Assembly (NCBI RefSeq): GCF_000721705.1
Contig: NZ_JOJL01000051.1
Coordinates: forward strand, 1-49,027
Direction: 5' to 3'
DNA: 49,027 bases
Origin: Actinoplanes subtropicus
GTDB lineage: Bacteria; Actinomycetota; Actinomycetes; Mycobacteriales; Micromonosporaceae
Position 1 is the stretch's first letter, and each line of letters starts with the position of its first letter. The position numbers and the translations under genes were made by a program. Below are positions 4,589-35,774 of this stretch, piece after piece. Below the pieces are notes generated by a model. That model was given only the letters and a program-made list of their open reading frames with translations, ran no database searches and had not been told where the DNA came from.

Positions 4589-4972
4589 ATGGGCGGGGAC
4601 GGGACTCCGGAGCGTACGCGGGTGGTGCTGGGTGAGGTCGCCGCCCGGCGCCGCCCCACCGACCGCAGCCACGCGGACCTCGCGGAGCAGACGCCGGTGG
4701 GTGAGGCGCTGGTGAAAGGCCTGGTCCGCGCCCAGCTCTCGCTCGCTCTCCGGCTCGCGCTGGTGGTGGTGACCGGGCTGGGCGCGCTGCCGATGCTGTT
4801 CGTGGCCGCCCCCACGGTCGGCGCGGTCAAGCTGCTCGGGGTCAACCTTCCGTGGTTGCTGCTCGGCGTGTTGTCGTTCCCGTTCCTGGTCGGCGTGGGC
4901 TGGGCGTATGTGCGCTGGGCCGAACGCAACGAACAGGACTTCATCGCGCTGATCCGGAAACCCGAGCAGTGA
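4589..4972 (+). CDS. DUF485-like small membrane partner of a symporter
   Basis: A 127-residue protein with a charged cytoplasmic N-terminus (about 45 residues) and two hydrophobic helices (about 48-78 and 85-107), ending in YVRWAERNEQDF. This arrangement and the gene order match the YjcH/DUF485 proteins that precede ActP-type sodium-solute symporters. Its stop overlaps the GTG start of the symporter (GTGA), so translation is coupled and the two products probably work together. Start ATG at 4589; no strong ribosome site. Confidence 0.65.
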   Translation: MGGDGTPERTRVVLGEVAARRRPTDRSHADLAEQTPVGEALVKGLVRAQLSLALRLALVVVTGLGALPMLFVAAPTVGAVKLLGVNLPWLLLGVLSFPFLVGVGWAYVRWAERNEQDFIALIRKPEQ

Positions 4973-6591
4973 ACCCGTACCTCGTCCCGGGTCTGATCCT
5001 GGTCGTCGTGGTGACTGTCGGCATCGGCGCGTACGGCCTGCGCTTCGCCCGTACCACCTCGGATTTCCTGGTCGCGTCGCGGGCGGTCAGCCCGGCCTGG
5101 AACGCCGCCGCGATCAGCGGCGAGTATCTGTCGGCCGCCTCCTTCCTGGGCGTGGCCGGGCTGATCTTGCGGTACGGCGTGGACGTCCTCTGGTACCCGG
5201 TCGGGTTCGCCGCCGGATATCTGGCGCTGCTGCTGTTCGTGGCCGCGCCGCTGCGTCGCTCGGGCGCCTTCACCCTGCCCGATTTCTGCCAGGTGCGGCT
5301 CAGTTCGACCGCGCTGCGGCGGCTGGCCAGCGTGTTCGTGGTCTTCATCGGCTGCCTGTACCTGGTGCCGCAGTTGCAGGGCGCCGGGCTGACCTTCACC
5401 ACGGTGACCGGCGGCTCGTACGTGTGGGGTGCGCTGCTGGTCGGCGTGGTGGTGACGGCCAACGTGGCGCTCGGCGGGATGCGGGCGATCACGTTCGTGC
5501 AGGCGTTCCAGTACTGGCTCAAGTTGACGGCCCTCGCCGTACCCGTCATCTTCCTGGTCTTGCAGTGGCAGTCGGATGGGCGGCCGTCCGTCGCTCCGCC
5601 GGCCGGCGCGGTCTTCCCGGCGGCCACCTCGGTGGTGGTCGAGCAGGACGCGACCGTCGACGGCGTCGAGGTGCACAAGGGCGAGGAGTTGTACTACGAC
5701 GAGGGCGACCGGGTGCCGCAGGTCAGCACGGTCGACGCGCACTTCGGGCCGGAGTGGCTGCTGCCCGGCGGCGAGCGGACGCTGTTCGCCACGTACTCGC
5801 TGATCCTGGCGACGTTCCTGGGCACGATGGGGTTGCCACACGTGCTCGTGCGCTTCTATACGAACCCGGACGGGGCTTCGGCTCGGCGTACGACATTGGT
5901 GGTCTTGGCCTTGGTCGGTCTTTTCTATCTGTTGCCGACGCTGTACGGCGTGCTCGGCCGGGTCTACACGCCGCAACTGCTGATGACCGGGCACACCGAC
6001 GCGGTCGTGCTCACCCTGCCCGAGGCGGCCCTCGGCGGCGGTCACCTCGGCCGGCTGCTCGGCGCGCTGGTCACCGCGGGCGCCCTCGCCGCCTTCCTCT
6101 CCACCTCGTCGGGGCTGCTCACCAGCGTCGCCGGGGTGGTCTTCACCGACGTGCTGCGGGCCGGGCGCGGCGGCTCGGTCCGCGACTTCCGGATGGCCAC
6201 CCTGCTGGCCGCGGTCGTGCCGGTCACGCTCTCGGTGTACGTCTCCAACATGGACGTTTCCCGGGTTGTCGGGCTGGCCTTCGCGGTGGCGGCGTCCAGC
6301 TTCTGCCCGCTGCTCGTGCTGGGCATCTGGTGGCGCGGGCTGACCGACCTCGGGGCGGCGGCCGGGATTCTGATCGGCGGCGGGGCGGCGATGGTGGCGG
6401 TGCTGATCACCGTGCTCGGGCCGCCGCTGGACGGCTGGGCGGCGCAGTTGATCGGTCAGCCGGCGGCGTGGACGGTGCCGCTGGCGTTCCTGGTGATGGT
6501 GATCGGGTCGCTGCTGACCAGCCGAAGGGTGCCGCACGACGTGGGCGCGACCATGCTCCGGCTGCACGCTCCGGAGTCGCTCCGCATTTAA
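4969..6591 (+). CDS. Sodium:solute symporter family transporter (ActP-like)
   Basis: A 540-residue cytoplasmic-membrane transporter with about 13 hydrophobic helices. The TTSDFLVASRAVSP segment, SGEYLSAASFLGVAG and the later FLSTSSGLLTSVAG sodium-site-like region are hallmarks of the SSS family and are close to the acetate/pyruvate (ActP, MctC) branch. A hydrophilic insertion (about residues 205-258, with charged runs such as KGEELYYDEGDRV) interrupts the helices and looks like an external loop. It starts with a GTG overlapping the stop of the DUF485-like gene. The substrate is inferred as a short-chain monocarboxylate from the pairing, not from the sequence. Confidence 0.82.
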   Translation: MNPYLVPGLILVVVVTVGIGAYGLRFARTTSDFLVASRAVSPAWNAAAISGEYLSAASFLGVAGLILRYGVDVLWYPVGFAAGYLALLLFVAAPLRRSGAFTLPDFCQVRLSSTALRRLASVFVVFIGCLYLVPQLQGAGLTFTTVTGGSYVWGALLVGVVVTANVALGGMRAITFVQAFQYWLKLTALAVPVIFLVLQWQSDGRPSVAPPAGAVFPAATSVVVEQDATVDGVEVHKGEELYYDEGDRVPQVSTVDAHFGPEWLLPGGERTLFATYSLILATFLGTMGLPHVLVRFYTNPDGASARRTTLVVLALVGLFYLLPTLYGVLGRVYTPQLLMTGHTDAVVLTLPEAALGGGHLGRLLGALVTAGALAAFLSTSSGLLTSVAGVVFTDVLRAGRGGSVRDFRMATLLAAVVPVTLSVYVSNMDVSRVVGLAFAVAASSFCPLLVLGIWWRGLTDLGAAAGILIGGGAAMVAVLITVLGPPLDGWAAQLIGQPAAWTVPLAFLVMVIGSLLTSRRVPHDVGATMLRLHAPESLRI

Positions 6592-6671
6592 GGTTGTTTA
6601 AGGTACGACCCCGGTCTCCTTAAGGTGGGCGCCGCGTATGACCCGGCAACCACCTAGCGAAGGAGCGGGTC

Positions 6672-7319
6672 ATGAGGCGGTACCGGCGGAATTCGATGAG
6701 CGGGCGTACGCGGAAGATGCTGATCGGCGGGGTCGCGCTGGCGATCGCCGGCGGGGCGGTCGCGGTCGGCACCGGGGTGAGCAGCGCCGCGGAGAACTGC
6801 GTCGGTCTCGACCAGGCGCTGCGTAACAATCTGCAGTTCATCGCGGGGCAGCGAGCGAATCCGGATGCGCTGTCGGATGCCCGGATCGCGAACCGGCAGG
6901 CGGTCGTCGACCTGATCAACCAGCGTCGGGCGGTGGCTGGATGTACGGCCGATGTGGCCGCTTCCGTTCCCGGCGCGGCGGCTGGTTCGGCGGCGGGTTC
7001 ACCGACAAAACCAGCAAAGCCGCCCAAGACGACCGCCCCGGCTGCTCCTCCGGCCGCCGGCACCGGCGCCGGCCAGGTCGTCTGCAAGGGTTCGACGGTC
7101 ACGCTGTCGGGCGAGTCGGGCGCGCCCTTCGCGTCCAGCGGCACCTTCCCGATCGGCACCGTCCTCAAGGTCACGAACCTGGACAACAGGAAGAGCACCA
7201 CCGTGAAGGTCCAGACGACCTCGGGCAGCTGCGTCCTGCTCAACAACGCCGCGTTCGAGCAGGTCCGCGAGCCGGGGAAGTTCCTGATCCGGCACGCCGT
7301 CATCGAAAAGATCGGTTGA
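6672..7319 (+). CDS. Secreted protein with double-psi beta-barrel (RlpA-like) domain
   Basis: A 215-residue exported protein. The N-terminus is basic, followed by a hydrophobic signal core (MLIGGVALAIAGGAVAVG) and likely cleavage near VSSAAEN. The mature part has a small helical region, a Pro/Ala-rich linker (about 95-130), and a C-terminal barrel with FPIGTVLKVTNLDN and two cysteines that could form a disulphide. The barrel resembles RlpA/expansin-like domains, which bind or cut cell-wall polymers. I cannot assign catalytic residues with confidence. GAAGGAG at 6659-6665 supports the ATG at 6672. It is monocistronic, with gaps on both sides. Confidence 0.72.
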   Translation: MRRYRRNSMSGRTRKMLIGGVALAIAGGAVAVGTGVSSAAENCVGLDQALRNNLQFIAGQRANPDALSDARIANRQAVVDLINQRRAVAGCTADVAASVPGAAAGSAAGSPTKPAKPPKTTAPAAPPAAGTGAGQVVCKGSTVTLSGESGAPFASSGTFPIGTVLKVTNLDNRKSTTVKVQTTSGSCVLLNNAAFEQVREPGKFLIRHAVIEKIG

Positions 7320-7387
7320 GGGGGTAGCCCGGGCCACTCCCACGACGGGGGTGGTCCGGGCTGGATGTTGCCCGCTACCGTCGGGTC

Positions 7388-8167
7388 ATGACGGCGCCGG
7401 CGCAACGCCAGGGTGAGCAGGCCGCGGCCATGTCGCTGCGCGGCCTGGTCAAACACTTCGACACCAAGCTCGCGGTCAGCCAGGTCAACCTGGACGTGCC
7501 GGCCGGCTCGTTCTACGGCCTCCTCGGCCCCAACGGGGCCGGCAAGACCACGACGCTCTCCATGGCCGTCGGCCTCCTGCGGCCGGATGCGGGTCAGGCA
7601 TTCCTGCTGGGGTACGACGCGTGGGCGGACCCCGCGGCCGCCAAGGCACGGGTCGGCGTGCTGCCCGACGGCGTGCGGCTCTTCGACCGGCTCACCGGCC
7701 CCGAGCTGCTGGCCTACCACGGGCTGCTGCGCGGCATGGAGCAGGCGACGGTCGACCAGCGCGCCCGCGAGCTGCTCGAGGTGCTCGAGCTGGGCGTCGG
7801 CAACCGCACCCTGGTGGTCGACTACTCGGCCGGCATGAAGAAGAAGATGGGCCTGGCCTGCGCGTTGCTGCACGCGCCGCGGCTGCTCGTGCTGGACGAG
7901 CCGTTCGAGGCGGTCGACCCGGTCTCGGCGGCCCTGATCCGCGACATCCTCCAGCGGTACGTGGCCGGCGGCGGCACGGTCGTCTTCTCCAGTCATGTGA
8001 TGGAGGTGGTCGAGCGGCTCTGCGACCACGTCGCGATCCTCTCCGACGGGGTGCTGCGGCTGAACGGGCCGCTCGACCGGGTGCGCGGCGATCGCTCGCT
8101 GGAGGAGGTGTTCGTCCAGGTCGTCGGCGGCCGGGTGGCGACCGGCTCCGAGCTGGCCTGGCTATGA
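7388..8167 (+). CDS. ABC transporter ATP-binding protein
   Basis: A 259-residue ABC ATPase. It shows the Walker A GPNGAGKT (residues 47-54), a divergent signature YSAGMKKKM (146-154), Walker B LLVLDEP (166-172) and an H-loop histidine in VFSSHVMEVV. The order and the LSxG-to-YSAGM change match the export-type, ABC-2-like ATPases whose partner is a single large membrane subunit. The downstream gene overlaps it by ATGA and encodes such a subunit. The cargo is not recognisable. Confidence 0.93.
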   Translation: MTAPAQRQGEQAAAMSLRGLVKHFDTKLAVSQVNLDVPAGSFYGLLGPNGAGKTTTLSMAVGLLRPDAGQAFLLGYDAWADPAAAKARVGVLPDGVRLFDRLTGPELLAYHGLLRGMEQATVDQRARELLEVLELGVGNRTLVVDYSAGMKKKMGLACALLHAPRLLVLDEPFEAVDPVSAALIRDILQRYVAGGGTVVFSSHVMEVVERLCDHVAILSDGVLRLNGPLDRVRGDRSLEEVFVQVVGGRVATGSELAWL

Positions 8168-9747
8168 CTCCCGGGGTCCTCCCGTTCGTCCGGCTCAAAC
8201 TGCGCCTGCTCGCCAACGGCCTGCGCGGCAGGCCGGCGCGCATCGCGCTGTTCCTCCTCGGGGTCGTGCTCTCCGGCGTCTTCGCGATCATCGGGTACGC
8301 GATCTTCGCGATCCCCGGCGTGGCGCACCGCCCGGGCGCGGCGGCGATCCTCCTCCCGCTCGGCGGCGCGGTCATCGTCCTCGGCTGGCTGTTCCTGCCG
8401 CTGGTCTTCTTCGGCGTCGACGAGTCGCTCGACCCGGCCCGCTTCGCGCTGCTCCCGTTGCGCCGCCGCGCGCTTCTGCGTGGGCTCTTCGCGGCCGCGC
8501 TCACCGGGCTGCCCGCGCTGGCCACGCTGGCCGCGACGGCCGGCATGGTGGAGACCGCGGCCCAGCTCGGCGGTCCCGCCGCCGCCGTGGGCGAGCTGGT
8601 CGGCGTGGTCGCCGGCTTGCTCCTGTGTGTGGCGGTGAGCCGGGCGGTGACCAGCGCGTTCGCGACCGGTCTCCGCTCGCGCCGGTCCCGCGATCTGGCG
8701 GCGATCGTGCTGGCCATGTTCGCGGCGGCGATCGGGCCGCTCCAGCTCGTGGTGCTGGCCGGCGCCCAGCGAGCCGATTGGGGCGCGGTCGGGACGGTGG
8801 CCGAGGTGGTGGGGTGGACACCGGTCGGAGCCCCGTACGAAATCGGTCTGGAAATCGCCGCGGGGCGTTGGTGGGCCGCCCTGCTGAAGTTGCTGATCGC
8901 CCTGGTCGCCATCGGCGGCCTGCTCCGGTGGTGGAGCGCCACCCTGGAGAACGCGATGATCGGCACGGTCGGCTCGGAAACGCGGCGGACGGCCACCGAT
9001 CGCCACCCGGTCGCCCTGCTGCTGTTACCCCGGCTGCCGCGCACCCGCTTCGGCGCGCTGGTGTCCCGCGAGGTGCGCTACTGGTGGCGCGAGACCCGGC
9101 GGCGGGCCAGCCTGATCACGTTCACCATGGTCGGCCTGTTCATGCCGGTCGGCCTCTCGGTCAGCGACAGCTCGCCCGGTGCGCTGGTCATCTTCATGGG
9201 CGCGATGGCGGCGCTCGGGCTCGCCAACCAGTTCGGCTTCGACGGCAGCGCGTACGCCGCGAATGTCACCGCCGGCGTCCCCGGGCGCGTCGAGATCGGC
9301 TCCCGTGCGGCGGCGCACGCGATCTTCACGCTGCCGCTCCTGGAGGTGGTGTCCATTGTGGTGGGCGCCCTGTACGGCGACCCGGGGCGGATACCCTCGA
9401 CGTTCGGCCTGCTGATCGCCTCGTACGGCGTCGGCCTGGGGTTGGTCTTGCCGGTCTCGGTGCGGGCGGCGTACGCGTTCCCGGCGTCGAGCAACCCGTT
9501 CGCGATGCCGTCGGGCGGCAGCCAGGCGAAGGGGTTGATCGCCTTCGGCGTCCTGCTCGGCTCGATCGTGGTCAGTCTGCCGCTCCAGATCGTGGCGCTG
9601 CTCCTCGGGCCGGTGTGGATGTGGATCGGCCTGCCGGTCGGTGTGGCGTACGGCACGGCGGCCTATCTCATCGGCTGGAACATGGCCGCCGACCTGCTGG
9701 ACAAGCGGGCGCCGGAGCTGCTGGCGGCGGTCACCCCGAACCGCTGA
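8164..9747 (+). CDS. ABC-2-like transporter membrane subunit
   Basis: A 527-residue integral membrane protein with about twelve hydrophobic segments in two halves, separated by a hydrophilic region near residues 255-295. Start ATG at 8164 overlaps the stop of the ATPase gene, so the two form a coupled exporter operon. The sequence has LLPLRRRALLRGL after the first helices and REVRYWWRETRRRASL before the second half, a pattern I associate with actinobacterial ABC-2 permeases. The direction of transport (export) and the substrate are inferences. Confidence 0.85.
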   Translation: MTPGVLPFVRLKLRLLANGLRGRPARIALFLLGVVLSGVFAIIGYAIFAIPGVAHRPGAAAILLPLGGAVIVLGWLFLPLVFFGVDESLDPARFALLPLRRRALLRGLFAAALTGLPALATLAATAGMVETAAQLGGPAAAVGELVGVVAGLLLCVAVSRAVTSAFATGLRSRRSRDLAAIVLAMFAAAIGPLQLVVLAGAQRADWGAVGTVAEVVGWTPVGAPYEIGLEIAAGRWWAALLKLLIALVAIGGLLRWWSATLENAMIGTVGSETRRTATDRHPVALLLLPRLPRTRFGALVSREVRYWWRETRRRASLITFTMVGLFMPVGLSVSDSSPGALVIFMGAMAALGLANQFGFDGSAYAANVTAGVPGRVEIGSRAAAHAIFTLPLLEVVSIVVGALYGDPGRIPSTFGLLIASYGVGLGLVLPVSVRAAYAFPASSNPFAMPSGGSQAKGLIAFGVLLGSIVVSLPLQIVALLLGPVWMWIGLPVGVAYGTAAYLIGWNMAADLLDKRAPELLAAVTPNR

Positions 9748-11479: not shown

Positions 11480-11538
11480 GCGGAGGGCGTGGGATTCGAA
11501 CCCACGATGAGTTTCCCCATACCGGTTTTCAAGACCGG
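11480..11538 (+). repeat. attL, 59-bp copy of the tRNA-Ser 3' half
   Basis: These 59 bases are identical to 25447-25505. Read on the minus strand they run from the anticodon stem-loop through the T arm to the acceptor 3' side and discriminator G. They mark the left junction of the integrated element. The base pattern beyond them differs from the right copy (no CCA triplet follows the discriminator here). Confidence 0.9.
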
Positions 11539-11889: not shown

Positions 11890-13383
11890 GTGCCGTACAA
11901 GGAACTTCGGCCGTCACAGGTCATCCTCGATCCGGAGAATCCACGGCTGCCCGACGGGACCTCAAGTGATCGAGAGGCGATCAACCAGCTCCTCGATGAG
12001 GGTGACGATGCTCTAATCAGCTTGGCTAGAGACATGGCCAAGACGGGTCAGACGAATCCGGCGGAGCTTCCGATCGCGATCAAGCAAGGCAGCAAGTATC
12101 TAATCCTTGAAGGGAATCGTCGGTTCGCTGCTTTAAAGCTGTTAGGCGATCCCATGCTTGCCGATAATGAAGAATACCGTGCCGCTTTTCGGCGAGCAGC
12201 ACTTCTGGGCACCCCACCGAAGTCCGTATTTACCCTAATCATGACCAGTCGAGAAGAAGCCGAACATTGGATCGTTCTTCGACACACTGGGGAGAATAAC
12301 GGGCGTGGGGTTAGGCGTTGGAGCGCTCCGCAGACTGCGACTCATCGCAGGCGAGCAAACCGCCCAGTCGATAGTGGCACGATACGGTCCATTGTAATGG
12401 CTGATGAGGTGGAAGAAGCTTACAGCCAGAATGACGAACTCACAGAGCTCATTCGCCAGACCCGTCGAGGTAAGCTAACCAATATCGGCAGATTCTTTTC
12501 TCCTGAAGTCCTGAATCGTCTTCACTTCTCAATCGAAGTAGACGAAGATAGCCCTTCGCGCGAACGCATGCTCCTCGTTCGGCATAGTCGCGAGCAGCTG
12601 GAGCCGTTCTTTCGTTGGGCTTTCACATTTATTCGAGACAACTCAGTGGATGCCTATAAAAATGCAAGAATTAGAGAAACTCTACTAGATGGTGTGCCCG
12701 ACCTGCTGCCATCGGATACCGAGGCACGAAGGTATCCGTTCCGCCTCGCTGAAACCGCTGGCACGGCAACTAGCATGTCTGATCAGTCAGCCGCCAACGT
12801 GAGTTCATCACCTTCGACAACTTCGGTTAATTCTGGAGCGTCCCCTAACCCGAGTTCGCCGCCTGCTCCGGGATCCAGTACCCCAGCCGGCAGCGGCCAA
12901 ACGGCGACATCTGGCAATGGGGCACCGGTCGGAAGCGTAGGTCGCAAACACGAGGCTAAGCCCGAGAAGTACCTGTTCCATGACCTTAGGCTTCCTAATC
13001 ATCCTCAGCGGATACAGAAAGTTCTAAAAGAGTGCCGAGACCTCGTTATCGAGGATTTTTCAAGCGTTGCCTGCGTGATGGCACGAGTAGTTGTTGAGTT
13101 GTCGGTATCTTCGCCGGAGGCATTACGCCTTTCGGGTACCACTGAGAGCGACAGTCTTAAGAACAAGATCATTGCTATGCTAAAATTCCTTGATCCAGAC
13201 ATCGAGAGTAATCCGAAGAGAGACAGGGAATTGGCGCAGGCCTTTCTCGAAGCCTCAGAGTTGGGTATCCCGTACTTGAATGGCTTCGTCCATAATCCGA
13301 ACGTTGTGCCCGATCCGCATCTTGCTCGCCGATTCAGTGCGGCTTTCCGGCCGATGCTAGAACGGATCGACGCACAGCTGTGA
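11890..13383 (+). CDS. ParB/sulfiredoxin-fold N-terminal domain protein
   Basis: About 497 residues. The N-terminal domain opens with the ParB-type lead (VILDPENPRLP) and has the family's central motif EGNRRFAALKLL about 70 residues in. A helical middle region follows, then a long Ser/Pro/Gly linker (about 12780-12940) and a separate C-terminal helical domain ending in YLNGFVHNPNVVPDP. This is not a plasmid-partition ParB with an HTH and dimer domain; it resembles ParB-fold proteins encoded next to DNA methyltransferases on mobile elements. GTG at 11890 follows GGAGG at 11881-11885 closely; ATG at 11860 is an alternative start. The stop overlaps the methyltransferase start. G+C is only about 48% (29/60 at 12121-12180), so its origin differs from the rest of the element. 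Confidence 0.78.
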   Translation: MPYKELRPSQVILDPENPRLPDGTSSDREAINQLLDEGDDALISLARDMAKTGQTNPAELPIAIKQGSKYLILEGNRRFAALKLLGDPMLADNEEYRAAFRRAALLGTPPKSVFTLIMTSREEAEHWIVLRHTGENNGRGVRRWSAPQTATHRRRANRPVDSGTIRSIVMADEVEEAYSQNDELTELIRQTRRGKLTNIGRFFSPEVLNRLHFSIEVDEDSPSRERMLLVRHSREQLEPFFRWAFTFIRDNSVDAYKNARIRETLLDGVPDLLPSDTEARRYPFRLAETAGTATSMSDQSAANVSSSPSTTSVNSGASPNPSSPPAPGSSTPAGSGQTATSGNGAPVGSVGRKHEAKPEKYLFHDLRLPNHPQRIQKVLKECRDLVIEDFSSVACVMARVVVELSVSSPEALRLSGTTESDSLKNKIIAMLKFLDPDIESNPKRDRELAQAFLEASELGIPYLNGFVHNPNVVPDPHLARRFSAAFRPMLERIDAQL

Positions 13384-14252
13384 AGACGGAATTTATTTCG
13401 CCCCTGCGATATCCAGGCGGGAAAGCGAAGCTTGGGCCTTTCTTCGCTCGAGTTTTGTCAAGTCAACCTGATGTAATTGACTCCTACGCTGAACCGTATG
13501 CAGGCGGAGCGGGTGCCGGACTGTACCTACTAGCTGAGGGTCATATCCAAAGCCTCATTATCAATGACCTAAATCCAGGGATTGTAGCGTTCTGGCGTGC
13601 GGTGCTGTTTGATACGGACGCGTTCATAGATCGCATCCTGGAGGCGGAGGTCAGTGTCGAGGCTTGGCACATACACAGGGAGTCGTACCTAAGTCCTGCT
13701 GGACGTAGCGATATCGATCTCGGATTTGCAACCTTTTTCCTCAATCGCTGCAATCGATCGGGCATCCTGACTGCACGCCCAATTGGTGGACTCGATCAAA
13801 CCGGAAAGTGGAAGATTGACGCTCGATTCAACAAGGCTAACTTGGCCGCGCGAATTCGGCGCCTTCAGACTCTCAGCGACAAGATTTCCGTGACGGAGAA
13901 ATCTGCGTTGGACTTTTTGTCGAGTATCTCCCGGCGCATTAAGCCTGTCTTGCTTTACGTCGATCCACCATATCTAGTTAAGGGCGAGGAACTCTATATG
14001 AGTTCTCATTCTTGGAGTGATCACGAGAAGCTCGCTGCGAGTCTCGCCAAAACTCGGCACCCATGGGTCTTGACATACGACACAGATGACAGGGTAAGAA
14101 GCCTGTATCCGGCCAGCCGATGTCTCGCTTACAGCATCTCACACACCGCGCAAACGCAAAGAATAGGACAGGAATTTATGCTGTTCAGCGCGGGCCTACG
14201 GGTTGGCGATACTGCGGTTTCGTCGAGTCGGTTTGGCACGTGGGTTTCTTAG
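13380..14252 (+). CDS. D12-class N6-adenine DNA methyltransferase
   Basis: This 290-residue protein should methylate adenine at N6 in a specific short DNA site using S-adenosylmethionine. It has the family's opening YPGGK (residues 9-13), the cofactor-binding EPYAGGAGAG region near residue 38 and the catalytic DPPY at 195-198. Length and order match Dam-like D12 enzymes. It starts with a GTG overlapping the stop of the ParB-like gene (GTGA), so the two are made together. No restriction endonuclease is adjacent. Low G+C marks it as foreign cargo. The target sequence cannot be predicted by eye. Confidence 0.9.
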   Translation: MKTEFISPLRYPGGKAKLGPFFARVLSSQPDVIDSYAEPYAGGAGAGLYLLAEGHIQSLIINDLNPGIVAFWRAVLFDTDAFIDRILEAEVSVEAWHIHRESYLSPAGRSDIDLGFATFFLNRCNRSGILTARPIGGLDQTGKWKIDARFNKANLAARIRRLQTLSDKISVTEKSALDFLSSISRRIKPVLLYVDPPYLVKGEELYMSSHSWSDHEKLAASLAKTRHPWVLTYDTDDRVRSLYPASRCLAYSISHTAQTQRIGQEFMLFSAGLRVGDTAVSSSRFGTWVS

Positions 14253-18427: not shown

Positions 18428-18519
18428 CTTCGCCCGGCGGCACGGCCCAAACCGACCAAAGCAGCGCCGTGCCGCCGGTCCCACCCGCAAGCCCTTCACG
18501 ACCCACAGGAGAGAGCCTG

Positions 18520-20661
18520 ATGGTCCCGCACAACCCGAACCCTGACGACAACCAGTTCGATTGGACCGCGGCTGAGGCTGACGTCGCCGAGGTCGTTGAC
18601 CTGGACAAGGCCCGTACCCGCCGGACCAGCGAGACGGCAGATACCCACTTTGAGGTGACTCTCGACGACGCACCGACGGCCGGCGGGATGCCCGTCGACC
18701 CGCCCCTGTCCGGGCCGGCCGGGCGGGTCCCGATCGTGCCGGTCGGTTGGTCGACGTGGCCGAACATCAAGCACAGCATCCGGCAGACCTTGGCCGTGAC
18801 CGCGTATCGGTGCGGCTTTCACGCGATCCGCTCGCCGAAGTACGCGATCCTCGCCGCGTTCTGGGCAGTGGTCGGCGTGTTCCGGCTGGCTGGCTGGCAG
18901 ATCCGCTGGTGGTGGGTGACCGAGCAGTACGCGCTACGTCAGGGCACGGCCGACGCCAACGATCCGGCGATGTGGCTCAAGCTGCACCGCGAGGTCAAGG
19001 CCACCCGCATGTGGCGATTCCTCGTGCTGACCTTCGAAGCCCTGACCATCGTGATCGGCGGCCCGATCCTGTGGGGGACCGGCCCGTGGTGGGCATTAGC
19101 CCTGGTCATCGGCGGTTCGATGGTGTTCCTGGCGCACCTGGGACGGCCGGACGACCGGCCGATCATCACCCCCGCCACGGTCGCGGGCCGGTTCCGGCGG
19201 GTGAACCCGGACATCATCCTTCGCGCTTACTACGCGGCGGGTCTCGGGCATCCGGACAAGCCGCACCAGCAGATCAGCTTCGGCTCGACCATGGCCCGCG
19301 ACCCGTCGGGAACGGGTTCTCAGGTGTCCATCGATCTGCCGTACGGCAAGACGTTCGACGAGGCGGTCAAGGCACGCGGAGCGATCGCCTCCGGCCTGGA
19401 CGTGGCGATCTCCCAGGTCTTCATCAGCCGGGACTTCAGTAGCCATCGCCGCCACACGCTGTGGGTGGCCGACCGGGACCCGCTCTCGCAGGGCGCCGGC
19501 CGGACTCCGCTGTTGCGCTGCAAGGCCACCGACGTGTGGCAGCCGGCCCCGTTCGGCCTGGACGAGCGCGGCAACAAGGTCTTCGTCGACCTGCTGTGGA
19601 ACTCGATCCTGATCGGTGCCCAACCCCGCCAGGGCAAGACCTTCGCCGCCCGCCTGCTCGCGCTGTACGCGGCGCTCGACCCGTACGTGAAGCTCACCGT
19701 GCTCGACGGGGGCGGTAAGCCGGACTGGCGCAAGTTCGCGTTGGTGGCCGACCGGTGCGCGTTCGGGCTGGCGATGACCCGCGACGGCGACCCCGCCGAG
19801 ATCGTCTTGGAGGCGTTGCGGGAGATCAAAGCGGACGTGCAGGACCGGTACGAGCGGCTCTCGAAACTGCCCGTGGACGTGTGCCCGGAGGGCAAGCTGA
19901 CAAGGGAGATCGCCCGGGATCCGAAGTACCGCATGCCGGTCCGGCTGGTGTTCCTGGACGAGTTCCAGGAGTACTTCGACCTCGGCGAGATCTCCAAAGA
20001 GATCGCGTCCCTGCTGGTCTACCTGGTCAAGGTCGCCCCGGCGGCCGGGGTCGGGTTCGTCGATGCCACCCAGCGGCCCTCAGGGATCGGGTCGGGGCAG
20101 GTCGCCCAGCAGTTCGTATCCTTCCGCGACAACCACCAGGTCCGGTTCTCCCTGCGCACCGGTTCGTGGCAGGTGTCCGACCTGGTGCTGGGCTCCGGCG
20201 CTTACTCGGAAGGGCACGACTCGTCGACGCTGCTGCCCTCCTACAAGGGCGTGGGCATCCTACGGGGCGCGTCGGACGCCACCCCGACCGTACGCACGCA
20301 CCTCGCCGACGCTGACGATGCGGAGAAGATCCTGATCGCCGCGCGGCAGCTTCGTGAGGCGGCCGGCACGCTGTCGGGGATGGCGGCCGGGGAGGACATC
20401 ACCCGCGCCGCCCGGGACGTGCTCGCCGACGTCCGCTCGGTGATCGAGCGCGGCGAGACCGGTGCCCAGTGGGAGGAGATCGCCGCCCGACTGGTCGAGC
20501 GGCTGCCCGAGGCGTACGCGGACACCACGGCCGAAGCGATCTCGGCGCAGGTCCGGGCGTTCGGTGTACGCAGCGTTGACGTCAAGCGCAACGGCAAGGC
20601 GCTCAAGGGCGCCAAGACCGACGACATCGACGCCGCCATCGGCCGGCGCAAGGCCGCCTGA
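18520..20661 (+). CDS. FtsK/SpoIIIE-type DNA translocase (TraB-like)
   Basis: A 713-residue hexameric DNA pump for conjugative transfer. The N-terminus is polar, followed by hydrophobic segments near residues 108-133 and 165-205 that hold it in the membrane. The motor domain has Walker A AQPRQGKT (367-374) and Walker B LVFLDE (476-481), then a glutamine-rich region typical of the FtsK fold. The C-terminus has a small winged-helix-like tail (about 630-713). In Streptomyces plasmids a single such protein moves double-stranded DNA between mycelia. ATG at 18520 follows AGGAGAG. It is the core of the transfer operon. Confidence 0.92.
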   Translation: MVPHNPNPDDNQFDWTAAEADVAEVVDLDKARTRRTSETADTHFEVTLDDAPTAGGMPVDPPLSGPAGRVPIVPVGWSTWPNIKHSIRQTLAVTAYRCGFHAIRSPKYAILAAFWAVVGVFRLAGWQIRWWWVTEQYALRQGTADANDPAMWLKLHREVKATRMWRFLVLTFEALTIVIGGPILWGTGPWWALALVIGGSMVFLAHLGRPDDRPIITPATVAGRFRRVNPDIILRAYYAAGLGHPDKPHQQISFGSTMARDPSGTGSQVSIDLPYGKTFDEAVKARGAIASGLDVAISQVFISRDFSSHRRHTLWVADRDPLSQGAGRTPLLRCKATDVWQPAPFGLDERGNKVFVDLLWNSILIGAQPRQGKTFAARLLALYAALDPYVKLTVLDGGGKPDWRKFALVADRCAFGLAMTRDGDPAEIVLEALREIKADVQDRYERLSKLPVDVCPEGKLTREIARDPKYRMPVRLVFLDEFQEYFDLGEISKEIASLLVYLVKVAPAAGVGFVDATQRPSGIGSGQVAQQFVSFRDNHQVRFSLRTGSWQVSDLVLGSGAYSEGHDSSTLLPSYKGVGILRGASDATPTVRTHLADADDAEKILIAARQLREAAGTLSGMAAGEDITRAARDVLADVRSVIERGETGAQWEEIAARLVERLPEAYADTTAEAISAQVRAFGVRSVDVKRNGKALKGAKTDDIDAAIGRRKAA

Positions 20662-21436: not shown

Positions 21437-23383
21437 GTGACTCAAGCTGGGCACGACCTGGCCGCCGAGCAGGCCGTCATCGGTGCCGCCCTGCTCGCCC
21501 CCAATCTGATGGCCGACCTCGCCGGCCTGCTGGCCCCGGCCGACTTCGGCCGCCCGGCACACGGCGTGCTTTGGGAAGCCATGTGCGGGATGCACGCGGC
21601 CGGCATCCCGACCGACCCGATCACCGTCACTGCCCACCTGGCCGAAACCGGTGACCTCGGCAAGGTGGGCGGGGCACCCTACCTACACACCCTCACCACC
21701 CAGACGCCCTCGACCGCAAACGCCGGCCACTACGCCGGCATCGTCGCCGACCTGGCCAAACGGCGCACCGTCGCCGACCTCGGGGCGCAGCTCGCCCAAC
21801 TCGCCGCGTCCGGGGCCGACGCGGCCGAGGTGGTGGCGACCGGGCGGGCGCTGCTCGACAACGCCGGCGTACCGGGTGGCTGGTCGCCACTCATCCCGCT
21901 CGGCCGGGGCCGACATCTGCCGCCATTTCCGGCGGAGCTGCTGCCCGGTTGGCTGGCCGAGCAGGTGATCGCGGTCGCCGAGTTCACTCAAACGCCGCTC
22001 GACTTGGCCGGGAGTCTTGCCCTGGCCTGTCTGTCGACGGCGGCCGGCGGCCGCGCCGAGGTGGAGGTACGCGGGTCCTGGCGGGAACCGACCAACCTCT
22101 ACACGGTCATCGTGCTCCCGCCCGGCTCCCGCAAGAGCGCGGTGTTCGCGGCGATGGTCGCGCCGATCCTGGCCGCGGAAAAGTCGCTGATCGAGCGGAC
22201 CGCACCCGCGATAATCGAGGCCGAGATCGCCGCCAAAGTCGCCGGTAAGGCGGCCGAGAAGGCCGCCCTTGCAGCAGCCAACGCCGACAACGGCCGAGAC
22301 ACCCTGATCGCCGAAGCGACGGCGGCCGCGATGAACGCCGAAGCCATCACCATCCCGGCGAAGCCGCAACTGGTCGCGGACGACGTGACCAGCGAAACGG
22401 CCGCGTCCCTGCTCGCCCAGCAAGGCGGCCGGCTGGCCGTGCTCTCTCCCGAGGGCGGGATCTTCGCCACCATCGCCGGCCGCTACTCCGGCACCCCGAA
22501 CCTAGAAGTGTTCCTCAAAGGCCACGCCGGGGACATGATGCGGGTTGGCCGGCTCTCCCGCGACTCCGAACACGTCGACAAACCCGCCCTGACCATGGGC
22601 CTCGCCGTGCAACCGGAGATCCTGCGGGACATCGCCGGCATGCCGGGCTTCCGAGGGTTGGGCTTGCTGGCCCGGATCCTGTTCGCGGTACCGGAGAACA
22701 CCGTCGGGTTCCGCAAGGTTGGTGCTGACCCGATCCCGACCCAGGTCGCCGCCGACTACCACGCCGGGCTTCACGCCCTGGTCCTCACGCTCGCCGAGTG
22801 GACCGACCCGGCCGTCCTGGTTCTCACCCCCGAGGCCAACGATCTGGTCCTTGAGATCGAGCGACAGGTAGAACCCCGGCTTGCCCCGGGCGGTGCCTGG
22901 TCGCACATCGTCGATTGGGGATCGAAGTACACCGGGGCGGTCGTCCGGATCGCCGGCCTGTTGCACCTCGCCGAGCATTTGCGCGAGGGATGGGGCAGAC
23001 CAGTCGGTGCGGACATCGTCGAGCGCGCCGCGTTGATCGGCGAGTACTACGCAGCCCACGCCCTCGGCGCGTTCGACGACATGGGCGCCGACCTGGCGAC
23101 GCGCAACGCGCGGACGATCCTGGCGTGGATCGAGCGCACCGGAACCAGCGCGTTCACCAAACGCGAGGTGTTCCGGTCGCTCAAGTCGGCGCAACTGCCG
23201 ACCGCTGGCGACTTCGATGCACCGCTGGCCGTGCTCGAAGCACACGGCTACCTCCGGTCGCTCGACCCGCCCGCACCGAAGCGGGCCGGCGGCCGGCCAC
23301 CCTCACCGAGCTTCCTCGTCCATCCCGAGGTACACCGACCGGCCGCGACTGTGCACCCGCTTGCCCCGCGCCGCGCCTCGTAA
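21437..23383 (+). CDS. Rep-like protein: DnaB N-terminal domain fused to DUF3987
   Basis: A 648-residue protein likely to start replication of the excised element. Residues 8-130 match the N-terminal domain of DnaB helicase (EQAVIGAALLAP, then DPITVTAHLAETGDL). The middle and C-terminus match DUF3987 primase/helicase-like proteins. The expected Walker A is degenerate: PPGSRKS (228-234) has Arg where Gly precedes the lysine. GTG at 21437 follows AGAGGAC. An inverted repeat lies directly after the stop, and a candidate origin there would fit a Rep gene. It is not a rolling-circle Rep of the pSAM2 type. Confidence 0.78.
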   Translation: MTQAGHDLAAEQAVIGAALLAPNLMADLAGLLAPADFGRPAHGVLWEAMCGMHAAGIPTDPITVTAHLAETGDLGKVGGAPYLHTLTTQTPSTANAGHYAGIVADLAKRRTVADLGAQLAQLAASGADAAEVVATGRALLDNAGVPGGWSPLIPLGRGRHLPPFPAELLPGWLAEQVIAVAEFTQTPLDLAGSLALACLSTAAGGRAEVEVRGSWREPTNLYTVIVLPPGSRKSAVFAAMVAPILAAEKSLIERTAPAIIEAEIAAKVAGKAAEKAALAAANADNGRDTLIAEATAAAMNAEAITIPAKPQLVADDVTSETAASLLAQQGGRLAVLSPEGGIFATIAGRYSGTPNLEVFLKGHAGDMMRVGRLSRDSEHVDKPALTMGLAVQPEILRDIAGMPGFRGLGLLARILFAVPENTVGFRKVGADPIPTQVAADYHAGLHALVLTLAEWTDPAVLVLTPEANDLVLEIERQVEPRLAPGGAWSHIVDWGSKYTGAVVRIAGLLHLAEHLREGWGRPVGADIVERAALIGEYYAAHALGAFDDMGADLATRNARTILAWIERTGTSAFTKREVFRSLKSAQLPTAGDFDAPLAVLEAHGYLRSLDPPAPKRAGGRPPSPSFLVHPEVHRPAATVHPLAPRRAS

Positions 23384-23710: not shown

Positions 23711-23899
23711 ATGGCACGCGCGTTTCTAACGCTTGACGAATTCCTCGAAGAGATGGACGTGGCCAAGTCGACGTTCTTCCGCTGGAAGGCCATCGGCCAG
23801 GCCCCACGGACGTACAAGCTCCCCAACCGATCGATCCGTATCCGCCGCACTGACTTCGAATCCTGGCTGTTGAGCCGTGAGGAGCCGCAAGCAGCATGA
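23711..23899 (+). CDS. xis: Excisionase (Xis), AlpA/MerR-like helix-turn-helix
   Basis: A 62-residue basic protein with a winged-helix DNA-binding motif: TLDEFLEEMDVAKSTFFRWKAIG, then a basic wing (PNRSIRIRRTDFESWLLSRE). It is the DNA-bending partner that favours excision over integration. ATG at 23711 follows GGGAGG a little upstream. The stop overlaps the integrase start (ATGA), so the two are made together. This Xis-Int arrangement is standard in actinomycete elements. Confidence 0.85.
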   Translation: MARAFLTLDEFLEEMDVAKSTFFRWKAIGQAPRTYKLPNRSIRIRRTDFESWLLSREEPQAA

Positions 23900-25290
23900 G
23901 CACCTACGACGTCAAGATCTGGGCCATTCAGGAGCACAAGGGCAAGGACCCGAAGACCGGAAAGCCGCGCAGCACGTACCGGGTTCGTTGGGTCGTAGCG
24001 GGCCAGGTATTCGGCGAGAGCTTCAAGACGAAAGCCCTCGCTGAGAGCTTCCGATCGAAACTCGTGGTCGCTCAACGCGAAGGCGTCGCGTTCGACGAGC
24101 CCAGCGGTCTACCGGAACCGATGGCGCGAGAACTCAACACCCGTTCCTGGTACGACCACGCGGTGGCGTTCGTCGACATGAAGTGGCCGCGCGCCGCCGC
24201 CAAGCATCGGAAGAGCATCGCGGAGGCATTGTCCAATGTGACTCCGGTCTTGCTCTCCGGCACGCGTGGCGCGCCGGCCGAGGCCGATATCCGGCGCGCG
24301 CTCTACGCCTGGTCGTTCAACAAGGCACGCCGTGACGCCGGACCGCCGCCCGAGGAGTTCGCCCCGGCGATTCGGTGGATCTCGTCGAACACCGTGAGTC
24401 TGAACGAGCTACGAGATGCGGCATTGGTGCGCAAAGCGCTCGATGCTCTGTCGCTCCGGCAAGACGGTAGGCAGGCAGCGGCGACGACCATTGCGCGCAA
24501 GCGGGCGGTGTTCTACGGAGCGCTTCGGTATGCCGTCGAGCTCGGCCTACTCGCCGCGCACCCCATGGCCAACGTCCAGTGGGTCACGCCGAAATCGAAC
24601 GACGAGATCGATCGTCGGTCGGTCGTCAACCCCGAGCAGGCACTCACGCTGCTCGGTGCTGTGTGCGAGCGGCATCCTCGGCTGGTGGCGTTCTACGCAT
24701 GCCTGTACTACGCCGCGCTGCGGCCGGCCGAGGCACTTCACCTCCGCATCGAGGATTGCGAGCTTTCCGAGGACGGGTGGGGAATGCTTCGGCTGTCCGG
24801 CTCGACTCAGCACGTGGGGGAGGGCTGGGGCGACGACATCAACGCCGTACGGGAAGACCGAGAGCTCAAACACCGAGCGAAGACCGCCGTACGCCTGGTG
24901 CCCGCCGCTCCGCCGTTGGTCCGCGCGCTTCGCTGGCACCTCGCGGAGCATGGCCACGCGCCGGACGGCCGGCTATTCGTCACCCAGGGATATGGGCACG
25001 GCCCGGTGTCGAAGGAGACGTACTCGCGCGTCTGGCGAGCTGCTCGCCGTGCCGCGCTGTCTCCCGCTCAGCAGCGCTCGCCGCTGGCCCGCCGGCCGTA
25101 CGACCTCCGGCACGCGGCGGTCTCGCTGTGGCTCAACGAAGGCGTGCCGGCAACCCAGGTCGCCGAGTGGGCGGGGCACAGCGTCCACGTGCTTCTGAAG
25201 GTCTACGCCAAGTGCATCGAGGGCCAGGATCAGGCGGCCCGCCGCCGCATCGAGGCAGCGCTGAGCAGGGACGACGATGCGGCCGCGTGA
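23896..25290 (+). CDS. int: Tyrosine recombinase integrase
   Basis: A 464-residue site-specific recombinase that inserts and excises the element at tRNA-Ser. An N-terminal arm-binding domain and a SAM-like core-binding domain precede the catalytic domain. Catalytic residues visible are R276 (AALRPAEALHL), R405 and H406 in YDLRHAA, H428 (AGHS) and the nucleophile Y437 (VYAKC). The usual first histidine of the HxxR box is replaced by Y402. It lies 156 bases from attR, as expected. Confidence 0.93.
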   Translation: MSTYDVKIWAIQEHKGKDPKTGKPRSTYRVRWVVAGQVFGESFKTKALAESFRSKLVVAQREGVAFDEPSGLPEPMARELNTRSWYDHAVAFVDMKWPRAAAKHRKSIAEALSNVTPVLLSGTRGAPAEADIRRALYAWSFNKARRDAGPPPEEFAPAIRWISSNTVSLNELRDAALVRKALDALSLRQDGRQAAATTIARKRAVFYGALRYAVELGLLAAHPMANVQWVTPKSNDEIDRRSVVNPEQALTLLGAVCERHPRLVAFYACLYYAALRPAEALHLRIEDCELSEDGWGMLRLSGSTQHVGEGWGDDINAVREDRELKHRAKTAVRLVPAAPPLVRALRWHLAEHGHAPDGRLFVTQGYGHGPVSKETYSRVWRAARRAALSPAQQRSPLARRPYDLRHAAVSLWLNEGVPATQVAEWAGHSVHVLLKVYAKCIEGQDQAARRRIEAALSRDDDAAA

Positions 25291-25444: not shown

Positions 25445-25532
25445 TGGCGGAGGGCGTGGGATTCGAACCCACGATGAGTTTCCCCATACCGGTTTTCAAG
25501 ACCGGCGCCATCGGCCACTAGGCGAGCCCTCC
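25445..25532 (-). tRNA. tRNA-Ser(UGA), rebuilt at the right end of the element
   Basis: A complete tRNA on the minus strand: acceptor stem GGAGGGC/GCCCTCC, anticodon arm CCGGT-CTTGAAA-ACCGG giving anticodon TGA, a class II variable arm, and T arm with GTTCGAATC. Discriminator G is followed by an encoded CCA (25447-25445). The 3' part is the attR copy supplied by the element; the 5' part is chromosomal. Confidence 0.95.
25447..25505 (+). repeat. attR, 59-bp copy within tRNA-Ser
   Basis: Identical to attL at 11480-11538. It runs from the anticodon arm to the tRNA 3' end, so recombination anywhere in it preserves a working tRNA. Confidence 0.9.
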
Positions 25533-33706: not shown

Positions 33707-35692
33707 ATGACGATTACGGGTTATGACTCGACAGGCCAGTCGGCCGGCGGGAACGTTCTGCCGCCCCGTCAAGTGACCGACCTGGAAGACCTGGACGCGG
33801 AGCTGCGGGCCCTGGATACGGACGTCGACACGGTCGCGCCGGTCTCGCCCGTACCCGATGTTGAGGCCGCCCCTGAGCAGCAGCAGGAGCCCGGCCGGCG
33901 GCTACGGGTCTGGCGCCGGCTCAACTGGCGGGACGTCCTTGCGATAGTGACTTTCGTCGCTGTGGCGCTCTACGTCACGTCGTCACTGTGGATCCATCCG
34001 GGTCACGGATCGGCCACCGACCCGCAGGATCAGGCCTTTTTCGAGTGGATGCTCGCGCACGGCGCAAGAGTCGTCACCGACGGCGCATATCCGTTCTTCT
34101 CGGATCGCATGAATTACCCCGATGGGGTGAACATGATGGCCAACACCTCGGTGCTGGCCGTTTCCCTGCCGCTCACTCCGGTGACCCTGTTGTTCGGGCC
34201 GCATGTGGCGTTCAACGTATTCCTGACTCTCGCGTTGTCGCTCACCGGTATCTCGTGGTATTTCGTGCTCTCCCGGCAGTTCGTGCGTTCCCGGCTGGCG
34301 GCCTGGGTCGGCGCTCTCTTCTGCACATTCGCGCCGAGCATGGTGTCGCACGCCGGTGGCCACCCGAACATCGTCTCGCAATTCCTGGTGCCACTGATCA
34401 TCTGGCGTACGCTGCGACTCCGCGCGGGACGCGCCCTGCGCAACGGGTTGATCCTGGCTGGTCTGCTGGTCTGGCAGGCCTTCATCAACCTCGAGATCCT
34501 CTTCATGACCGCGGTCGGCCTGGGCGTCTTCTGCGTCATCATGGCGGTGGTCCGGCGCAAGCGGTACCGCGGTGAGACACGCGCTTTCCTGCGCGGTCTA
34601 CTGGTCGCGGCGACAGTGGCCGTTGCGGTACTTGCCTATCCGCTGTCCGTTCAGTTCTTCGGCCCGCAGAGCTATCAGGGCCTGCCGCAGTTCGTCCGTA
34701 ACTTCGGGGCCGACCTCGGTTCGTTCACCGCCTATTCCTCGCGGTCGGTCGCCGGAAACTCGGTGGTCGCCGACCGGCTGGCCCAGAATGCGCAGGAGGA
34801 GAACGCGTTCTTCGGCTGGGGCTTGGTCATTTTGTTCTTCGGTCTGATCATCTGGATGCGGCGCCGGGCGGCCGTCGTGGCGCTCGGTCTGGTGGCGCTG
34901 CTGTACGCCGCGATGTCGCTCGGGCCGCGAATTTTCCTGAATGGGATCAACACCGGTGTTCCCGGCATCTGGGCCGTACTGCACAGCGTCCCGGTGCTGA
35001 ACTCGGCCGTGCCGACCCGCTGGGCGATGGCCATCGCGCCGGTCGTCGGCATCCTGCTCGCGCTCGGCGTGCAGCGGGCCGGTGACCTGATGAAGGCGCA
35101 GCCGTCCGCCCGCGGCCCGGTCCGGCTCGCGATGATCACGGCGGTGGCCATGGCGCTGGTGCCGCTGGCGCCGACCCCGCTCAAGACCAGGCCGCAGGCG
35201 CCCACCCCGGCGTTCGTCACGTCCGGCGAGTGGAAGCAGTACGTGGACGACAACCACACCGTGGTCACCCTGCCGTTGCCGGACTCGGGCTACCCCGACC
35301 CGCTGCGGTGGAGCGCCGCCACCGGCCAGGACATGCGGATCGCCGGGGCGTACGCGCTGCTGCCCAACCAGAACCCGCTGAACCCGAACGATCACACCGC
35401 CCTCTTCTCGCCGCCGTGGCGGCCGACCAGCGGGCTGATGGCCTCGATCAAGCAGGGCAACCCGGTTCCCGAGATCAGCGACACCCGCCGGGAGATGACC
35501 CTCGCCGACCTGCGGTACTGGAAGGCCGGCGTGATCATGATGACCCCGCAGGCCCACGACGTCGAGATGCTCCGGGTGATGACCGACCTGCTCGGCTTCG
35601 AGCCGACCTGGACCGGCGGCGCCTGGGTCTGGGACGTACGCGATCTGGTGGACGACCCGAACGCGGTGCTGACCGGCCCCGACATCTCCTGA
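33707..35692 (+). CDS. Large multi-pass membrane protein, GT-C-like
   Basis: A 661-residue membrane protein. An acidic, Pro-rich cytoplasmic N-terminus (about 75 residues) precedes about ten hydrophobic helices, and the last 150 residues are soluble. The first external loop has acidic residues and tyrosines (ATDPQDQAFFEWML, YPDGVN), the typical position of the catalytic acid in GT-C glycosyltransferases using polyprenyl-phosphate sugars. The precise family is not one I can name. It is followed at 83 bases by an MptB-like gene, which supports a shared envelope-glycan role. Confidence 0.7.
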   Translation: MTITGYDSTGQSAGGNVLPPRQVTDLEDLDAELRALDTDVDTVAPVSPVPDVEAAPEQQQEPGRRLRVWRRLNWRDVLAIVTFVAVALYVTSSLWIHPGHGSATDPQDQAFFEWMLAHGARVVTDGAYPFFSDRMNYPDGVNMMANTSVLAVSLPLTPVTLLFGPHVAFNVFLTLALSLTGISWYFVLSRQFVRSRLAAWVGALFCTFAPSMVSHAGGHPNIVSQFLVPLIIWRTLRLRAGRALRNGLILAGLLVWQAFINLEILFMTAVGLGVFCVIMAVVRRKRYRGETRAFLRGLLVAATVAVAVLAYPLSVQFFGPQSYQGLPQFVRNFGADLGSFTAYSSRSVAGNSVVADRLAQNAQEENAFFGWGLVILFFGLIIWMRRRAAVVALGLVALLYAAMSLGPRIFLNGINTGVPGIWAVLHSVPVLNSAVPTRWAMAIAPVVGILLALGVQRAGDLMKAQPSARGPVRLAMITAVAMALVPLAPTPLKTRPQAPTPAFVTSGEWKQYVDDNHTVVTLPLPDSGYPDPLRWSAATGQDMRIAGAYALLPNQNPLNPNDHTALFSPPWRPTSGLMASIKQGNPVPEISDTRREMTLADLRYWKAGVIMMTPQAHDVEMLRVMTDLLGFEPTWTGGAWVWDVRDLVDDPNAVLTGPDIS

Positions 35693-35774
35693 GTGGGGTG
35701 GCGGTCGCCTGACCGCCCCCCGCCGTTTCCCCGATCCGGACCTCCCGGACACCAGTGTTCGTGAGCATCGATGA

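Follow-up and report, generated by a model that had tools for sequence, protein, structure and literature searches.

Background

PD-lambda-5 is a two-gene anti-phage system found by phage selection in Escherichia coli, in a P2-like prophage (Vassallo et al. 2022). The E. coli system is described as protecting against phage, and broadly so, in PMC9519451, and PD-Lambda-5 is said to tend to be prophage-encoded in a passage of an Actinobacteria survey (PMC10482375). A 2025 survey counts PD-Lambda-5 among HEPN-domain systems where it enumerates them (PMC11811056), and one table of a 2023 review gives HEPN for PD-T4-2, PD-T4-5, PD-T7-3 and ApeA (PMC10952713). Proteins with the ParB-CTPase fold are described in a 2025 survey as being fused to methyltransferase domains and as binding CTP, ATP or GTP, and a word search of its main text finds neither HEPN nor PD-lambda (PMC12704722). 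No published mechanism of PD-lambda-5 was found in the literature searched, which left most subscription papers, and bioRxiv as such, outside its scope. Here, we describe two overlapping genes, A and B, in a 49,027-nucleotide stretch of Actinoplanes subtropicus DNA (contig NZ_JOJL01000051.1, the whole of which is called the window below). By their sequences, the two genes form a further member of the already described PD-lambda-5 system, in a new setting:

11890..13383, + strand: gene A, PD-lambda-5 A-type protein (497 residues, GTG start)
13380..14252, + strand: gene B, D12-class N6-adenine DNA methyltransferase, PD-lambda-5 B-type (290 residues, GTG start)

With the E. coli system, the pair shares its two genes, A-type and B-type, and its carriage on a mobile element, the likeness being judged through the PADLOC models that match both proteins and not against the E. 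coli protein itself. It differs in its actinobacterial host, in lying on an integrative element and not a prophage, and in being low-G+C cargo of that element. We favor, with a probability of roughly 0.55, the reading that A and B are PD-lambda-5 anti-phage cargo in a defence slot, in which B would mark self, A would sense unmarked DNA, and a HEPN-like domain of A would bring about shutdown.

Identity and linkage of the gene pair

Protein A matches the PADLOC model PD-Lambda-5_A (PDLC04007) with E = 2.1e-159 over residues 1–497 and profile positions 1–449 of 454. At E ≤ 1, 26 PADLOC models matched A, and 25 of 25 among the matches listed were PD-Lambda-5_A. PHROG 9592, for which PHROG assigns no function, covers residues 4–493, and Pfam gave no match to A, hence no Pfam nuclease domain. 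Protein B matches PD-Lambda-5_B (PDLC04018) with E = 2e-104 (profile positions 3–279 of 291), scores lower against the general Type II and orphan methyltransferase models of PADLOC, and is recognized by Pfam as MethyltransfD12 (8.3e-17). Its LRYPGGK and DPPY motifs are retained in 24 of 24 sequences. The first-pass annotation had proposed a possible anti-phage pair of a ParB-fold protein and a methyltransferase with intact D12 motifs; the motifs are indeed intact, and the PADLOC matches, together with the linkage and mirrored divergence described below, support the pair, but not as a new system.

The same annotation had seen two coupled genes of low G+C content, and the coordinates and a G+C scan agree. 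The GTG start of B overlaps the stop codon of A, so that GTGA (4 nucleotides) is common to both genes. Upstream, the open frame of A extends as far as a TTG (11755); its start was placed at the GTG of position 11890, preceded by GGGGAGG. With 53.4% G+C, the pair is the lowest segment of its length in the window (sampled every 100 nucleotides), compared with 68.6% for the whole window and 70.6% for the left flank, and its third-position G+C is 54–55% against 75–90% in four other genes of the element. Promoter and terminator scans gave signals no better than chance.

For the linkage of the two genes, 34 loci with an A-type open reading frame (ORF) were tabulated. Of the records to which A gave a match, those from plasmids (all 7) and 6 of 17 from phages were fetched. 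Locus L050 was excluded from the count because it had been fetched via B, L002 was not covered by the scan, and no A hit was returned for L032, whose match is weak and contains stops. A B-type methyltransferase gene overlapped the A gene or lay within 32 base pairs (bp) of it in 22 of the 25 A-anchored loci whose A ORF has at least 430 residues, B being downstream on the same strand in 15 and convergent in 7. The overlap is also 4 nucleotides in L013, L014, L037 and L038; that of 820 nucleotides in L036 probably reflects an over-extended B frame. No B-type gene was present in the stretch fetched for L040, L052 and L057; in the last, a Vibrio phage, one lies further off, at 35343–36161 of the 41,077-base record. 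Among the eight short A-type ORFs, which include a fragment next to an insertion sequence, a single one has a B-type gene, 1 kb away. Pairwise distances of A and B correlate with r = 0.87 over 24 pairs, a value that includes host relatedness and that 0 of 2000 permutations reached; the window's pair and L050 were in this set and L056 was out. Linkage in 22 of 25 loci goes against the possibility that relatives of A are mostly unlinked to methyltransferases or are ordinary partition proteins, and, with the mirrored divergence, it led us to discard an orphan methyltransferase with a chance neighbor as the main reading.

At E ≤ 0.001 and with the window's own genome included each time, A-type matches were found for 3 of 60 genomes in the genus (the window's own and two with weak, partial matches), 5 of 246 in the phylum and 14 of 394 in the class. 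Protein A alone as a query against genome contigs found no relative, and a second scan of genome contigs with alignment A1 found three loci.

Domains and conserved residues of protein A

The AlphaFold model of A (mean pLDDT, the predicted local distance difference test score, 87.7) was divided as follows:

11890..12354, + strand: ParB-CTPase/sulfiredoxin-like domain with the EGNRR motif (residues about 1–155)
12355..12765, + strand: helical middle, weakly resembling the DNA-binding part of KorB (residues about 156–292)
12766..12948, + strand: Ser/Pro/Gly-rich disordered linker (residues about 293–353)
12994..13380, + strand: HEPN-like C-terminal domain with conserved E381, R399, E403 and H468 (residues 369–497)

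The ParB-CTPase-like, helix-turn-helix (HTH)-like and HEPN-like parts are assigned from structure prediction only. The N-terminal part contains the GxRR-type nucleotide-binding motif of the ParB/sulfiredoxin (Srx) fold, and the helical, possibly HTH-like middle resembles KorB weakly in the predicted structure. The linker has pLDDT below 50 at residues 294–324 and 326–352 and is little conserved among homologues. In a wider second look with VIA-align on the predicted model, the C-terminal domain was closest to HEPN proteins and is probably of the RNA-cutting type. Its single-sequence model was poor (pLDDT 46.5) and was not used. Foldseek with A gave nothing at E ≤ 0.001 in the PDB and no HEPN chain among the 41 matches listed, and a PDB sequence search with the profile of the C-terminal domain gave no HEPN chain either; against viral models, Foldseek returned mostly ParB-like proteins, the best being a ParB-like gene of Vibrio phage ValB1MD-2. 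The ParB/sulfiredoxin-type N-terminus and Ser/Pro linker anticipated from the sequence agree with the predicted model, and the C-terminal domain, previously taken as unrecognized, is HEPN-like in it. As PMC11811056 already lists PD-Lambda-5 under HEPN systems, at least in that enumeration, we dropped a HEPN domain in PD-lambda-5 as a novelty.

Partition ParB, KorB and Noc share with A the CTPase-like N-terminal domain, the GxRR motif and possibly the HTH-like region, whereas A has a HEPN-like C-terminus and a methyltransferase partner, and no ParA-type ATPase gene was found among the 15 neighboring ORFs scanned with Pfam. On these grounds, we rejected A as an ordinary partition ParB, in keeping with the earlier view. 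HEPN toxins and effectors such as MNT-HEPN and Csm6 probably share the fold predicted for residues 369–497, and they have in common with A a conserved His in the final motif. Unlike them, A fuses its HEPN-like part to a ParB-CTPase-like domain and is without the canonical Arg of R-x4-6-H, having another conserved Arg (R399) on an earlier helix.

Conservation was assessed in 25 divergent homologues of A, one of them trimmed, with L013 and L014 fairly close to the window's protein. N17, R19, N76, R77, R78, H132 and H468 are among the residues invariant in 25 of 25, and R399 and E403 are conserved in 24 of the 25. R399 and H468 are also invariant in 117 close homologues (the 120 listed minus P0039, P0050 and P0051).

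Possible mechanism and a restriction alternative

Sequence comparison carries part of the favored reading: the family membership of both genes, their linkage and parallel divergence, the methyltransferase motifs of B, which are intact, and the element with its slot. Beyond this part, B would methylate adenine at a specific site and so mark resident DNA, while A, probably as a dimer, would bind a nucleotide via its ParB-like domain and contact DNA. Protein A would stay off on marked DNA and be turned on by unmarked or replicating phage DNA. The activated HEPN-like domain might then cut RNA and halt the infected cell, amounting to abortive infection, possibly with direct interference with phage DNA in addition. 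A more specific form, which we put forward only tentatively and regard as rather doubtful, sees A as a nucleotide-switched DNA clamp in which the ParB dimerization domain has been swapped for a HEPN domain whose active site (R399, E403, H468) is unusual, so that loading on DNA without the mark of B would pair two HEPN domains and lead to RNA cleavage. If true, a ParB-type CTP/NTP switch would here sense infection by reading the adenine methylation of DNA. The domain anatomy of A and its invariant residues make the PD-lambda-5 mechanism testable by specific mutants.

Some observations weigh against the reading of A and B as a dedicated anti-phage pair with an RNA-cutting effector. The canonical HEPN RNase motif is R-x4-6-H, and the position of its Arg, residue 463, is L, M, F or I, with Arg in 0 of the 25 divergent homologues; as an RNase, the domain would have an unusual active site, to which an earlier helix perhaps contributes R399. 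Linkage is also loose in the reverse direction, since 13 of 14 opened B-anchored loci, hand-picked and none previously known to hold A, were without A. The remaining locus, with A-type genes, was that of Vibrio phage ValB1MD-2.

The missing Arg would also suit a compact restriction system, in which A cuts or nicks unmethylated DNA via its ParB/Srx domain and the HEPN-like part is structural or dimerizing. Single-strand nicking by the ParB/Srx family, restrained by ATP, is cited in a passage of PMC12839542, and the broad protection by the E. coli system would fit as well. We nevertheless consider this alternative unlikely, because EGNRR is similar to the motif with which the fold binds nucleotides, A has no nuclease domain recognized by Pfam, and H468, R399 and E403 are conserved about as strongly as the ParB motif, which argues for an active C-terminal site. 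Type II restriction-modification systems share with the pair an adenine methyltransferase potentially marking self, whereas the partner of B is a ParB/HEPN-like protein. No PADLOC match to a restriction enzyme was found in A, in B or in the 10 ORFs scanned across the element and its edge, which agrees with the initial impression that none is nearby; the lack of a separate one would be expected if A itself is the effector.

The integrative element and its probable defence slot

The pair sits just inside the distal attachment (att) repeat of a 14-kb integrative element, at the edge where it had first been placed. The landmarks of the element are:

11480..11538, no strand: distal att copy, 59-bp direct repeat, part of tRNA-Ser (exact repeat)
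25447..25505, no strand: proximal att copy, inside the intact tRNA-Ser(TGA) at 25445–25532 on the − strand
23896..25290, + strand: element integrase (Pfam Phage_integrase, 5e-9)
21437..23383, + strand: DnaB-N/DUF3987 replication-type protein, backbone marker (Pfam, 2.5e-110 and 5.5e-26)

The two 59-bp repeats are exact, lie 13,967 bp apart and derive from tRNA-Ser(TGA), whose intact copy adjoins the integrase. Further genes of the element code for a DUF2637 protein, a HAD-like hydrolase and two regulators of the GntR type. A 730-residue protein (18469–20661) had no Pfam match; it contains the Walker-A-like GAQPRQGKT, at the position expected for a transfer ATPase, and from this motif only it is read as a putative FtsK/TraSA-like transfer ATPase.

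Of 67 genomes of the genus, 19 have relatives of the DnaB-N/DUF3987 gene at E ≤ 1e-60, counting the window's own genome, where there is a second copy. Neither A nor B was detected in any of 14 sibling regions (tblastn at 1e-4), one of which is from the window's own genome and five of which (L087–L091) are more distant, with 63–67% helicase identity. The order regulator–HAD–GntR–DUF2637–ATPase–helicase is kept in L078, L079, L081, L083 and L084, the last of which is cut off by the end of its contig and includes only a small part of the slot. On the distal side, L079, L081 and L085 show an att-like copy and L078 shows 27 bases of one; none was seen in L083. Ten ORFs from the slots of five regions (L078, L079, L081, L083 and L085) were scanned, and three of the five slots carry other defence genes: a Type IIG restriction-modification gene (9e-288) in L078, an ApeA-type HEPN protein beside a PIN-like protein in L081, and in L085 an HNH protein that has matches to Type IV restriction and whose neighbor has a candidate-defence match. 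No defence match was found among the ORFs scanned in L079 and L083. The region beside the distal att is probably a defence slot, or hotspot, of this element family. As one replaceable slot between the distal att and the conserved regulator, it offers a mapped place to seek further defence systems of these actinobacteria.

Type II restriction-modification systems can kill cells that lose them, and the pair, which lies on an integrative element and in which a methyltransferase and a putative toxin overlap in one operon, might analogously stabilize the element, A killing the cell once the element is lost and the mark of B is diluted. We judge such an addiction module quite improbable, given the absence of the pair from the 14 sibling regions, the other defence genes in three of five slots, and the discovery of the PD-lambda-5 family through phage selection. 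A reading without a role in defence, in which A regulates the element or acts in it as a partition-like factor and B is an orphan methyltransferase unrelated to A, might be suggested by the N-terminal ParB fold and by the B-type methyltransferases that occur without A. We hold it to be highly improbable, since both proteins match PD-Lambda-5, their genes are linked and diverge in parallel, and no ParA-type gene was found among the 15 neighboring ORFs scanned with Pfam.

Related loci

In ValB1MD-2 (L099:1955-3507), A is present as two genes, ParB-like and HEPN-like, directly before B, by either a natural split or a frameshift. Other genes take this position elsewhere: in 3 of the 14 opened B-anchored loci, namely two E. 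coli chromosomes and a Citrobacter phage (L061, L062, L100), an annotated AAA ATPase or ATP-dependent nuclease lies directly upstream of the B-type gene, and a "Lp2 protein 4" gene precedes the B-type methyltransferase in two Streptococcus phages (L101, L102). The ATPase or nuclease and the B-type methyltransferase perhaps form another two-gene partnership. In a DNA search with a Kosakonia pair, 3 of 5426 E. coli genomes matched, solely within a methyltransferase gene; in the two of these loci that were opened, the upstream gene encodes an AAA ATPase or ATP-dependent nuclease and not A.

The convergent pairs are L003, L039, L041–L044 and L046, three of which overlap tail to tail. The A proteins of these seven are on average nearer to one another (35%) than to the other A proteins (21%). 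In L040, a 1345-residue ORF (4887-8651, − strand) joins an A-type ParB-like part to a RecD-like helicase, as read by eye.

Seven loci (L002, L031, L045, L047, L055, L056 and L060) encode short ParB-like proteins of about 360–400 residues followed by an uncharacterized protein of about 320–370 residues, which in L031, L045 and L055 carries W-A-D-W/Y-x-E-L-L/Q-C. Near the short ParB-like genes of L002 and L060, there is a cytosine methylase by annotation or by a match, and C5-methylase-like or Vsr-like ORFs were read by eye in L047, L045 and L049. The first protein of L060 and of L031 has PADLOC PDC-M38A matches alongside those to PD-Lambda-5_A. These loci possibly represent a three-gene cousin of PD-lambda-5.
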